A stretch of DNA of 39,583 nt, taken from the NCBI GenBank assembly GCA_016192985.1, contig JACPTC010000042.1, positions 1 to 39,583 of the forward strand, in the 5' to 3' direction. Source of the stretch: Candidatus Woesearchaeota archaeon. GTDB lineage: Archaea > Nanobdellota > Nanobdellia > Woesearchaeales > GW2011-AR4. The notes beneath the pieces are model-generated. The model ran no database searches. It was not told where the DNA came from and was given only the letters and a program-made list of their open reading frames with translations. Made by a program: the position numbers and the translations under genes. Of the stretch, positions 1,642-25,256 are shown one piece after another (positions within the stretch are counted from its first letter, which is position 1; the number at the start of each line of letters is the position of its first letter).

Positions 1642-1694
1642 TGTATTAATAATCAAAAATAGCCCCGGGCAGATTCGAACTGCCGTCAGAGCCT

Positions 1695-1744
1695 TTCCAT
1701 TGCAGTTGCTTGTGGGGAATCTTTCGGACTCCAGTTGCCTGCAA
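1695..1744 (-). other. tRNA-Gln intron 2 (canonical, position 37/38)
   Basis: 50-nt intron in the anticodon loop. TGCAG near the 5' splice site pairs with CTGCA near the 3' splice site to make the inner helix. Bulges are GG^T and AA^A, and the central helix CTTT/ATGG has one mismatch and one G-U pair. Removal leaves the loop CTTTGGA with anticodon TTG. Confidence 0.85.
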
Positions 1745-1772
1745 CCAAAGGGCCCTATGCTTGACCGCTACA

Positions 1773-1799
1773 TTCCGCAGAATAACATGGATTATTCTT
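1773..1799 (-). other. tRNA-Gln intron 1 (non-canonical, position 10/11)
   Basis: 27-nt intron inside the D-stem, between G10 and T11. The intron core is the hairpin AGAATAA-TCCATG-TTATTCT. The 4-bp central helix pairs exon CCGT with intron GCGG, with 3-nt bulges GG^A and AA^T on opposite strands: a complete bulge-helix-bulge motif for the archaeal tRNA splicing endonuclease. Confidence 0.85.
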
Positions 1800-1911
1800 C
1801 CACGGGGCTATAAAACGAATCTGCCGAGACATATTAAAAGACTATACCTTAATATTTAAATTTAATGGCAAAAATTTATATAATACTCATAAAATTCAAG
1901 GCAGGGGGATT

Positions 1912-3804
1912 ATGGTAGAGAGCAAATTTTTCATTATAGATTTTGACAGCACTTTCACTCAAGTTGAGGCTTTGGACGAGCTGGCAGCTATCTCTCTTAA
2001 AAACAGTCCTAAAAAATTAAATATTCTCAGCGCTATAAAGCACATTACCAGTTTAGGAATGGAAGGCAAGCTATCAATCGCTGAATCGTTAAAACAGCGC
2101 ATCAAACTGCTGAATGCAAACAAAAAGCATCTTGAGATGCTGGTTAAGCTATTAAGAAGGAAAGTTACTCCTTCTTTTGTTCGCAACAAGCAATTCTTCA
2201 GATTGCACTCCAAAAACATATTCATAATCTCTAGCGGATTCAAAGACTACATAACTCCAGTTGTCAAGCAATTCAATATTCCAGAAAAAAACATCTTTTG
2301 CAATGAATTTGTTTTTGATAAAGACAAGAACATAATAGGATTTGACGAAAGAAACACTCTTGCAAAAGAAAATGGCAAAGTAGAGCTGCTTAAGTCTCTA
2401 AAACTTGAAGGGGAGATATATGTTGTGGGAGATGGCTATACGGACTATCAGCTCAAGGAGTCAGGTTTAGTTGCAAAGTTTTTTGCCTTTACAGAGAATG
2501 TTGCAAGGGAGGTGGTGGTTAAAAAAGCTGATCACGTTGCGCCTACATTTGACGAATTCCTTTACATGAGCAAACTGCCTATGTCAATTTCTTATCCAAA
2601 AAATAGAATCAAGATGCTTTTGCTTGAGAATATACACCATGAATCAATCTCTTTGTTAAAGAGGGAAGGTTACACTGTTGAGGGCATTCCAAAAAGTCTC
2701 ACCGAGGAAGAGCTGGTTGAAAGGATAAAAGATGTGTCGATACTGGGCATTAGGTCAAAAACAGAAATAACGGCCAGAATGTTGGAGAATGCACACAGGC
2801 TAATGGCTATAGGCGCTTTTTGCATTGGCACAAACCAAATAGACCTTATAGGATGCTCAAGAAAAGGAATTGCTGTTTTTAATGCGCCCTACAGCAACAC
2901 AAGAAGTGTAGTTGAGCTTGCAATGGGAGAGATAATCATGCTTATGAGAAACATCTTCGATAAGAGCAACAATGCGCATAAAGGAGTTTGGGACAAGTCA
3001 TCACATAGAAGCTATGAAGTAAGAGGCAAAAACTTAGGCATAATCGGCTATGGCAATATTGGCTCTCAATTATCCGTTCTTGCAGAGGATTTTGGAATGA
3101 ATGTGTATTATTATGATATTGTGGAAAAGCTTGCGCTCGGCAATGCAAAGAAATGCGGCTCAATGCAGGAATTGCTGAAAAAGGCAGATATAGTGTCGGT
3201 GCATGTTGACGGCAACCCCCGCAACAGAAATCTCATCGGGAAAAAGGAATTTAGAGTGATGAAAGATGGGGCAATATTCCTAAATATGAGCAGGGGATTC
3301 GTGGTTGATATGCAGGCACTTGAAAAATACATAAAAAATGGAAAAATAAGGGGCGCTGGCATAGATGTTTTTCCTACCGAGCCAAGAAGCAACTCTGAGG
3401 AATTTGTTTCTGAGCTTCGCAATCTGCCAAATGTCATTTTAACCCCACACGTAGCAGGCAGCACAGAAGAGGCGCAGCAAAACATAGGCCAGTTTGTTGC
3501 CAATAAAATTATTGATTTTATAAATACAGGGAACTCTTTTTCAAGCGTGAATTTCCCGAACATACAGCTGCCAATGCTTAGAAATGCCCACCGCTTGATA
3601 CATATCCACAAAAATGTTCCAGGAGTGCTGTCACAGATTAACGGCATATTGGCTAAAAACAACATCAACATTTTGGGGCAATACTTAAAGACAAATGAGG
3701 AAATTGGCTATTCAATTACCGACGTAAGCAAAGAATGCCCTAATCAAGTGGTTAATGAGCTTAAAAAAACATCGAACACCATAAAATTCAGGATTCTTTA
3801 CTAA
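1912..3804 (+). CDS. Phosphoserine phosphatase / 3-phosphoglycerate dehydrogenase fusion
   Basis: 630-residue fusion of the last and first enzymes of phosphorylated serine synthesis. Residues 1-220 are a HAD phosphatase (SerB-like): DFDSTFT with nucleophile D10 and acid D12, then ISSGF, and VVGDGYTDYQ as the metal-binding motif. Residues 230-545 are SerA: NAD-binding GIIGYGNIGSQLSVLAEDFG, the catalytic Arg in LNMSRGF, Glu in VFPTEPR, and His in LTPHVAGST. Residues 550-630 form an ACT-like domain, usually the serine-feedback site. A TATA-like TTTATATAA (1875-1883) and GGGGG before the ATG support this start. The serC-like gene follows after 1 nt. Similar SerB-SerA fusions are, as I recall, found in Bacteroidetes, so transfer is possible. 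Confidence 0.93.
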   Translation: MVESKFFIIDFDSTFTQVEALDELAAISLKNSPKKLNILSAIKHITSLGMEGKLSIAESLKQRIKLLNANKKHLEMLVKLLRRKVTPSFVRNKQFFRLHSKNIFIISSGFKDYITPVVKQFNIPEKNIFCNEFVFDKDKNIIGFDERNTLAKENGKVELLKSLKLEGEIYVVGDGYTDYQLKESGLVAKFFAFTENVAREVVVKKADHVAPTFDEFLYMSKLPMSISYPKNRIKMLLLENIHHESISLLKREGYTVEGIPKSLTEEELVERIKDVSILGIRSKTEITARMLENAHRLMAIGAFCIGTNQIDLIGCSRKGIAVFNAPYSNTRSVVELAMGEIIMLMRNIFDKSNNAHKGVWDKSSHRSYEVRGKNLGIIGYGNIGSQLSVLAEDFGMNVYYYDIVEKLALGNAKKCGSMQELLKKADIVSVHVDGNPRNRNLIGKKEFRVMKDGAIFLNMSRGFVVDMQALEKYIKNGKIRGAGIDVFPTEPRSNSEEFVSELRNLPNVILTPHVAGSTEEAQQNIGQFVANKIIDFINTGNSFSSVNFPNIQLPMLRNAHRLIHIHKNVPGVLSQINGILAKNNINILGQYLKTNEEIGYSITDVSKECPNQVVNELKKTSNTIKFRILY

Positions 3805-20973: not shown

Positions 20974-21144
20974 TTTATTACAAAATGAGTCAATTATTTA
21001 AGTATTTTACTACTAAAATTCTATCTTAGTTAACTTTTTAATAAAAATAATGGATTTTTTGTTATTTTATTCCTTTTTCTTGAAGAAAATTCTATAAACT
21101 TATACTTTTTACCACTAATTAAAGATAAAATATTGGAGAATAAA

Positions 21145-21549
21145 ATGACTAAAGAGATTCCAATCGCAAATTGGCCACCAGATAGGGGAATGGGTCTGGT
21201 AGTTCAAGTATATGTAGATGATAAACCCTACTTAAGATTTAGACCGTTTAAATATGGAATGCGCAGGGGTGAATATAACCATGGAGCTATTTTAAAAGAG
21301 TTTTTAGGTCAATTAAAAATAGTTTATGACACGATAGTTGGGAGTGATTTAAGGATACCAATGCCTACTCCAAATGGGGAGAGGTATAGTGTGGTTGGTA
21401 TGGGTGATTTTGAAGTTGATGATGATAATCATTCTATCAATTTTATAAGATTTAATCCAGATTATAGAGTCTATGAATTTGGAATAAATCAAAAACATTT
21501 GGATGATATTGTAAGACTATGTCCTGAATGGACTTTAAGAAGAAAATAA
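21145..21549 (+). CDS. ORFan soluble protein
   Basis: 134-residue protein that I do not recognise. It looks like a small beta-rich cytoplasmic domain: VVQVYVDDKPYLRFRPFKYG, RRGEYNHGAILKEFLGQL, then a hydrophilic NGERYSVVGMGDFEVDDDN stretch and a C-terminal helix HLDDIVRLCPEWTLRRK. The ATG at 21145 has GGAG six nt upstream; a TTG at 21133 is a less likely start. TATA-like TCTATAAACTTATAC lies 35-50 nt before it. Codon choice (few GCA and GGC) differs by eye from the flanking housekeeping genes. The lipoprotein gene follows after 18 nt, so the two may share a transcript. Confidence 0.65.
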   Translation: MTKEIPIANWPPDRGMGLVVQVYVDDKPYLRFRPFKYGMRRGEYNHGAILKEFLGQLKIVYDTIVGSDLRIPMPTPNGERYSVVGMGDFEVDDDNHSINFIRFNPDYRVYEFGINQKHLDDIVRLCPEWTLRRK

Positions 21550-25168: not shown

Positions 25169-25256
25169 GCCTCCGTAGTTCAGCCCGGTTAGAATGACTG
25201 CCTCGTAAGCAAAACGAGTTAGCAGTAGGTCGGGAGTTCAAATCTCCTCGGAGGCT
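25169..25256 (+). tRNA. tRNA-Thr(CGU) with a 13-nt intron
   Basis: The acceptor pairs GCCTCCG with CGGAGGC, followed by discriminator T, as in archaeal tRNA-Thr. The D-stem is GTTC/GAAT, the anticodon stem ACTGC/GCAGT, the mature loop CTCGTAA with anticodon CGT, the variable loop AGGTC, and the T-arm GGGAG-TTCAAAT-CTCCT. Mature length is 75 nt after intron removal. CCA is not encoded. A T-rich tract follows directly. Confidence 0.93.
25208..25220 (+). other. tRNA-Thr intron, 13 nt, position 37/38
   Basis: Intron AGCAAAACGAGTT. Exon CTCG (25202-25205) pairs perfectly with intron CGAG (25215-25218), with bulges TA^A and TT^A. The inner helix is reduced to a GCAAAA loop, a minimal form of the bulge-helix-bulge motif. 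Confidence 0.85.

Follow-up and report, generated by a model that had tools for sequence, protein, structure and literature searches.

The window, by which we mean the whole 39,583-nucleotide stretch of DNA analyzed here (JACPTC010000042.1), is contig C33 of a 1.26-Mb, 65-contig metagenome-assembled genome (MAG) of a Candidatus Woesearchaeota archaeon that is 77% complete (GCA_016192985.1; G000 in our labeling, in which G denotes genomes, C contigs, L loci and f families). Its minus strand carries, at 1660-1809, a gene that gives a complete 73-nt tRNA-Gln(UUG) once 27 nt at position 10/11 and 50 nt at position 37/38 are excised. In the direction of transcription, the features are:

1853..1860, minus strand: TATA-like box TTTAAATA, at -51, placed with our own weight matrix
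1816..1830, minus strand: leader element GUCUCGGCAGAUUCG, complementary to the 3' half of the T-arm and the 3' strand of the acceptor stem in a predicted fold
1800..1809, minus strand: exon 1 of tRNA-Gln(UUG), positions 1-10 (5' strand of the acceptor stem, U8, G9 and G10)
1773..1799, minus strand: intron at 10/11, 27 nt, with central helix CCGU/GCGG and inner helix of 8 bp, HBh' form, based on covariation and 18 genes
1745..1772, minus strand: exon 2, positions 11-37, including the anticodon UUG
1695..1744, minus strand: intron at the canonical position 37/38, 50 nt, with three of four central-helix pairs
1660..1694, minus strand: exon 3, positions 38-73

The weight matrix for the box at 1853..1860 was built on what we take to be the TATA-like box motif. 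Beside the tRNA gene, window positions 1912-3804 encode a 630-aa fusion of a HAD-type phosphatase with phosphoglycerate dehydrogenase. Its two best archaeal matches (73 and 75% identical) are from Candidatus Woesearchaeota MAGs with isolate names that point to groundwater; most other matches of the fusion come from Bacteroidota, Ignavibacteria and similar bacteria, so that a transfer is likely. Elsewhere in the window (25169-25256) lies a tRNA-Thr(CGU) gene with a 13-nt intron at 37/38.

Recognition of the Gene and Its Splice Motifs

The tRNA-Gln(UUG) gene at 1660-1809 is missed by ARAGORN as well as by Rfam at the gathering threshold; in practice, this gene is overlooked by these two standard searches. 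We used our own script, which enumerates bulge-helix-bulge (BHB) motifs with a 4-bp helix and 3-nt bulges and scores the cloverleaf together with the BHB. Its top solution (score 61.4; runner-up 51.0) has the same two junctions, and the resulting 73-nt tRNA, that the initial annotation had proposed, which is thereby reproduced by an independent route. Other junctions for the two introns were rejected, the best alternative lying 10 points lower. None of 80 interior shuffles of the gene reached 61.4 (maximum 55.5). As the script is permissive, finding some lower-scoring solution in 57 of the 80 shuffles, the comparison with relatives described below is the stronger support for the junctions. An intact second tRNA-Gln(UUG) gene, which the initial annotation had set against its own reading, was looked for with BLAST and not found in the 77%-complete host assembly; besides the gene's own exons, the matches were a piece of tRNA-Gln(CUG) on C12 and a stretch on C13 that is no tRNA.

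The two splice motifs differ in form. At 10/11, the central helix CCGU/GCGG has all four pairs, flanked by 3-nt bulges and an inner helix of 8 bp, with an outer helix of only 1 bp, which makes it the relaxed form HBh' and not a full hBHBh'. The motif at the canonical 37/38 site has an outer helix of 7 and an inner helix of 5 pairs, with three of four central pairs formed (U-U mismatch). The BHB geometry claimed earlier for both junctions thus stands, and the first motif is indeed perfect in its central helix and bulges but not in its outer helix; an outer helix of at least 3 bp is absent from the 10/11 motif in all 11 genes of the family that have it (11/11).

The central helix at 10/11 recruits C5, C6 and G7 of the acceptor stem plus U8, so that the motif and a full acceptor stem are mutually exclusive. 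In our fold model, forming the 10/11 motif in a leaderless molecule costs +8.0 kcal/mol on average (18 genes; 6.7 for the gene in the window), and the best fold of the unspliced, leaderless molecule retains an intact acceptor stem. In the nascent first 42 nt, the motif lies at most 0.8 kcal/mol from the best fold.

Conservation and Covariation Among Relatives

A BLAST search with the spliced tRNA gave matches in 32 of the 36 genomes of the family. Among 50 solved family tRNA-Gln genes (UUG and CUG), nine are intronless, 11 have one intron, 23 have two and seven have three. Of the 78 introns, 30 are located at 37/38, 25 in the D loop, 11 at 10/11, 10 at 59/60 and two elsewhere. In eight of the 50 genes, the mature tRNA has an unusual length (71 or 74-82 nt), and individual junctions may be misplaced as a result. 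Excluded from the counts were candidates longer than 260 nt (junction comparison) or 200 nt (leader, TATA and intron-position counts), genes left unsolved by the script (among them L090, L096 and L161) and loci without a fitting acceptor stem (L152, L160, L162, L164, L167 and L168).

Within the family, the 10/11 intron occurs in the UUG genes of G000, G005, G009, G010, G011 and G017 and in the CUG genes of G002, G005, G010, G019 and G023, and the same first exon is found without it in, e.g., the UUG genes of G001, G002 and G020. At the orthologous serA-linked locus, G001 has identical exons, no 10/11 intron and a 12-nt intron at 37/38, and G017 has the 10/11 intron. A pattern search across 352 genomes of the order returned at least 18 matches (a lower bound, the pattern being exact) in 16 genomes from six families, and a reversed-pattern control returned none. 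All 18 are tRNA-Gln genes with a 10/11 intron, and the seven outside the host family are all tRNA-Gln(UUG).

These genes hold 17 distinct 10/11 introns, in which 98.7% of 149 cells are paired, against 26-56% in slid controls. In the inner helix, all five counted pairs change on both sides in a compensatory manner, with 26 double-change cells. Compared with 500 shuffles, no shuffle was as high in cells paired, double-change cells or covariation score, and the other two of the five measures were unremarkable (70 of 500 shuffles as high for pairs with a double change, 307 of 500 for further pair types). The central helix CCGU/GCGG is invariant across the 17 introns, so covariation speaks neither for nor against it. 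At the level of sequence, then, the comparison shows the exon/intron borders, the conservation of the predicted intron structure and the link between the 10/11 intron and a leader element.

A Leader Element Associated With the 10/11 Intron

In the predicted fold, GUCUCGGCAGAUUCG (minus 1830-1816) forms 15 bp, interrupted by a single bulged C, with the 3' end of the tRNA. We scored the complementarity between the 30-nt leader and the last 25 nt of the tRNA in all solved genes. A score of at least 7.5 was reached by 15 of the 18 genes with a 10/11 intron and by 1 of 39 without (Fisher 5.5e-10, kinship ignored); at a score of at least 6, the numbers are 17 of 18 and 3 of 39. In 15 of the 18 intron genes, the leader outscores its shuffled versions (p <= 0.02); the remaining three give 0.10, 0.16 and 0.31. 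Two designs can be distinguished: an anti-T-arm element, GGCAGAUUCG against CGAAUCUGCC (f1-UUG, f8 and f29), and an acceptor mimic, UAGCCCCG(C) against (G)CGGGGCUA (f1-CUG, f40 and f81). In G042 and G104, variants of the leader fit the variants of their own T-arm. The association has its exceptions: G241 has the 10/11 intron and no clear leader element, the pairing is limited to 6 bp in G002-CUG and G019-CUG, and G004 combines a leader element with a D-loop intron and a TATA-like box placed upstream, yet has no 10/11 intron, which it may have lost. Among 18 other tRNA loci of the host, one leader score passes (tRNA-Thr, L003), and the stretch concerned is, as we read it, at or above its TATA box.

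The TATA-like boxes start at a median of -53 in the 18 genes with the 10/11 intron and of -33 in 40 rows without it (p=3e-4), one of the 40 rows being misread (L100, 'TGG'). The matrix is crude, picking boxes at -47 to -73 in several genes that lack the 10/11 intron. The shift of about 20 nt upstream is expected if the leader element is transcribed.

In the fold model, the mean cost of forming the 10/11 motif in the 18 genes is +2.5 kcal/mol with the real leader and +5.5 kcal/mol with a shuffled one. Shuffled leaders did as well in at most 4 of 40 cases in 13 of the 18 genes, and in 8, 9, 16, 17 and 29 of 40 in the other five; for G019-CUG the real leader was worse than the shuffled mean. A swap test, in which leaders scored 8.65 against their own 3' end and 8.02 against those of others, is uninformative because the 3' ends of tRNA-Gln are much alike. 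After splicing, the energy of the acceptor-stem form still exceeds that of the free ensemble in each of the 11 family genes, by 1.6-6.7 kcal/mol, the gap narrowing in eight, and the leader remains paired in the three post-splicing folds inspected. The folds of these 11 genes thus do not support a simple thermodynamic switch in which splicing frees the leader, and release of the leader would need tertiary folding or RNase P.

tRNA Introns in the Host Genome

Eighteen further tRNA loci of the host were looked at, of which 16 were resolved, with 19 introns; among these, tRNA-Val(CAC) is the sole intronless gene. Together with both tRNA-Gln genes, this amounts to 24 introns in 18 resolved genes, or 1.3 per gene, in an incomplete genome, with junctions set by the script and with L010 and L012 omitted as unresolved. 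For comparison, introns per tRNA gene have been given as 0.84 for Thermoproteales and 0.21 overall, with 71 introns in 46 tRNA genes in Pyrobaculum calidifontis (PMC8450103). The two-intron tRNA-Gln and the intron-rich genome around it agree with the earlier suggestion of a DPANN archaeon with multiple and non-canonical tRNA introns.

The host tRNA-Gln(CUG) gene (L156, G000:C12:13550-14100, near 13.8 kb) has three introns, in the D loop, in the anticodon loop and at 59/60; its D-loop and anticodon junctions are uncertain. A 44/45 intron of tRNA-Phe (L017, G000:C15:8226-8304, and L220 in G129) has the splice motif CCGU.GG^...GCGG.AA^U, which is that of the tRNA-Gln 10/11 intron. The latter could possibly have been transposed from there, an idea weakened by the fact that the common letters of the motif are partly dictated by the exons. 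At G000:C30:5697-5912 (L011 and L015), tRNA-Val(UAC) and tRNA-Gly(GCC) stand in tandem, separated by an additional copy of the 3' end of tRNA-Val. Two host tRNA genes (L013 and L014) have a near-identical hairpin, AACCUUUUCUUU...AAAGAAAAGCUUGA, inside their 59/60 introns, and in relatives (L075, L077, L080, L082 and L087) a similar hairpin separates tRNA-Gln from a duplicate of its 3' end; this may be a mobile hairpin that creates T-loop introns. Two conserved cores recur in the 37/38 introns. The core GCGAAAAUCAGAGAUUUUCUGGUCUUUC or a close form is present in L095, L139, L146, L148 and L092, with a similar form in the D-loop intron of L159, and a second, 50-nt type is shared by window 1695-1744, L141, L089 and L155. 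A search of the longer 37/38 introns of six loci against Rfam at the gathering threshold gave no match to a known RNA.

Splicing Endonuclease and Ligase

A single EndA match was found in the host, of 198 aa (C49:8394-8987), with PF02778 and PF01974. In the family, 30 of the 36 genomes have a match (E<=1), which is the only one in 27 of these 30; the extra matches are a second full copy in G013, a fragment with 75% identity at a contig end in G002, and 22 residues in G018 (E 0.017). Tyr134, His144 and Lys174, presumably the catalytic residues, are invariant in 13 sequences. The closest solved chains are Nanoarchaeum equitans alpha, followed by Methanocaldococcus jannaschii. In A. pernix, K44 is named as a residue of the specificity loop (PMC6379350); in our alignment, the residues around it, which form the crenarchaea-specific loop, have no counterpart in the host protein. 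An AlphaFold model of the latter (mean pLDDT 40.7) was unusable. No beta subunit was recognized in the host or the family with a profile that may miss distant betas. At E<=10, PF01974 gave two weak scattered extra matches in eight selected genomes. Window ORF 21133-21549 was rejected as a beta subunit (12.3-bit match, no Pfam match at E<=0.1).

Relaxed motifs are reported to be removed efficiently only by (alpha-beta)2 and epsilon2 enzymes (PMC6379350). The initial annotation had argued from the introns to an endonuclease of broad specificity and had pointed to the EndA type as a check. Such an enzyme would be a fair need, yet the host genome does not establish it, the one catalytic EndA found there lacking the crenarchaeal loop. 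Either the relaxed motifs would be cut by this loop-less single-subunit EndA, or a beta subunit is hidden or absent from the assembly.

RtcB, the ligase, was not found in the 77%-complete host MAG, and is present in 30 of the 36 family genomes; its absence from the host is likely an assembly gap. In six genomes (G003, G010, G001, G013, G024 and G011; L209, L210, L212, L213, L214 and L216), a 30-33-nt insert that forms the BHB GGGG.AU^U...CCCU.UG^A splits the HWGYG motif of rtcB, and a second insert of hBHBh' form lies in GFDI^NCG in L216 and L218 (G011 and G016). Excision restores the reading frame, in G011 for only a few codons past the first site; for L211, L215, L217 and L218 the script gave no solution at the first site. 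A ligase mRNA that needs the ligase could possibly amount to self-regulation of rtcB.

Proposed Mechanism and Alternatives

We propose that the transcript would start about 25 nt upstream of the tRNA and that its 15-nt leader element (minus 1830-1816) would pair with the 3' half of the T-arm and the 3' strand of the acceptor stem, as a placeholder for the 5' strand of that stem. C5, C6, G7 and U8 would thereby become available for pairing with GCGG in the 10/11 intron, giving the bulge-helix-bulge, whose two bulges EndA would cleave, as it would the 37/38 site. The exons would be joined by RtcB, and the mature cloverleaf would form only after ligation, upon which RNase P would take off the leader. 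From the sequence comparison and the fold model, a leader that occupies the 3' strand and leaves the 5' strand to the splice motif appears the most likely arrangement. We estimate at roughly two in three the probability that, jointly with this leader mechanism, the tRNA-Gln(UUG) of the window is a working gene with two EndA-type archaeal introns. On the fuller account, in which the leader is a stand-in for the acceptor strand, two designs of it arose in the Woesearchaeales, splicing comes before 5' maturation and a loop-less single-subunit EndA cuts the relaxed motif, our judgment is evenly balanced.

If the leader acts as a placeholder, splicing must precede its removal. This prediction is sharp, since in Methanopyrus kandleri the order is the reverse, end trimming coming before intron removal (PMC3695527), and the processing order here would be contrary to the one reported there. 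It would also mean that an intron whose splice motif disrupts the end-defining stem of the tRNA can persist, by way of a co-evolved leader.

The introns might instead be spliced with the leader complementarity as a functionless by-product, owing to kinship or to an insertion that copied a piece of the tRNA, and with the 10/11 motif forming on the nascent 5' part. The small distance of the nascent 42-nt motif from the best fold (within 0.8 kcal/mol) fits this explanation, as do the CUG leaders, which look like the acceptor 5' strand copied in tandem, and the swap test, which does not discriminate. It sits less well with two distinct elements, of T-arm and acceptor type, that achieve the same kind of pairing, with leader variants that track T-arm variants in G042 and G104, and with TATA-like boxes that lie further upstream in genes with the 10/11 intron; we consider it unlikely. 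We give very little credence to a decayed pseudogene or an unspliced tRNA that retains the 27-nt hairpin, for which the intact acceptor stem in the best fold of the leaderless, unspliced molecule could be cited: relatives have almost the same exons and introns of varying length, the 10/11 inner helix has compensatory changes, and the 77%-complete host assembly yielded no other UUG gene.

For the endonuclease, an ordinary broad-specificity (alpha-beta)2 enzyme with an overlooked beta subunit is a possibility that we would take seriously without favoring it. The host EndA is nearest to N. equitans alpha, which has a beta; the profile returned no crenarchaeal beta among PDB chains up to E 10, so a distant beta could escape; and the nanoarchaeon Nst1 is likewise described without an identified beta gene (PMC3655853). 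The same profile, though, reaches the N. equitans beta at 1.6e-15, the scattered PF01974 matches in the eight selected genomes are just two and weak, and with a single EndA in 27 of 30 matching family genomes, the extras in G013, G002 and G018 are unlike a shared beta.

Comparison With Known Systems

EndA-type introns, several per gene and in the D and T arms, are already known. The non-canonical BHB introns of Thermoproteales, Caldiarchaeum, N. equitans and M. kandleri (PMC4090602, PMC4033280, PMC8450103, PMC3293823) share with those described here the 3-nt bulges and 4-bp helix, the occurrence of several introns per gene and the D-arm and T-arm sites. The present case differs in the use of acceptor-stem bases in the motif, in the associated leader element and in its Woesearchaeote host. 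Position 10/11 is absent from the positions named in PMC4090602 (20/21, 22/23, 25/26, 29/30, 30/31, 45/46, 53/54, 56/57, 59/60, 3/4, 'etc.'), an open list that does not establish its newness; the available text of PMC3293823 has no match for 10 11 (slash form excluded). Literature searches on leaders and tRNA introns gave no similar case by title or abstract start among the matches listed, and none of the matches listed for tRNA introns in Woesearchaeota or DPANN was on the subject. If right, the leader mechanism would be the novel element, an undescribed way to make a 10/11 intron removable.

With regard to the endonuclease, the M. jannaschii alpha4 EndA (1A79) and N. equitans EndA alpha (3IEY_A) have, like the host protein, a single catalytic subunit of about 200 aa with PF02778 and PF01974, without a loop inserted at the position of A. 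pernix K44. The M. jannaschii alpha4 enzyme is classed as narrow (PMC6379350); the host is instead rich in relaxed motifs. A Woesearchaeote thus ranks beside the Thermoproteales in tRNA intron density with an EndA that lacks the testable features held to permit this, and the combination makes the idea of co-evolution between endonuclease and introns directly testable.

The closest parallel to the leader is found in split tRNAs (PMC4033280, PMC3491384), in which leader pairing likewise brings the splice motif together. In split tRNAs, the pairing joins the leaders of two separate transcripts; in the present gene, one 5' leader would pair with the 3' end of an exon in the same transcript.
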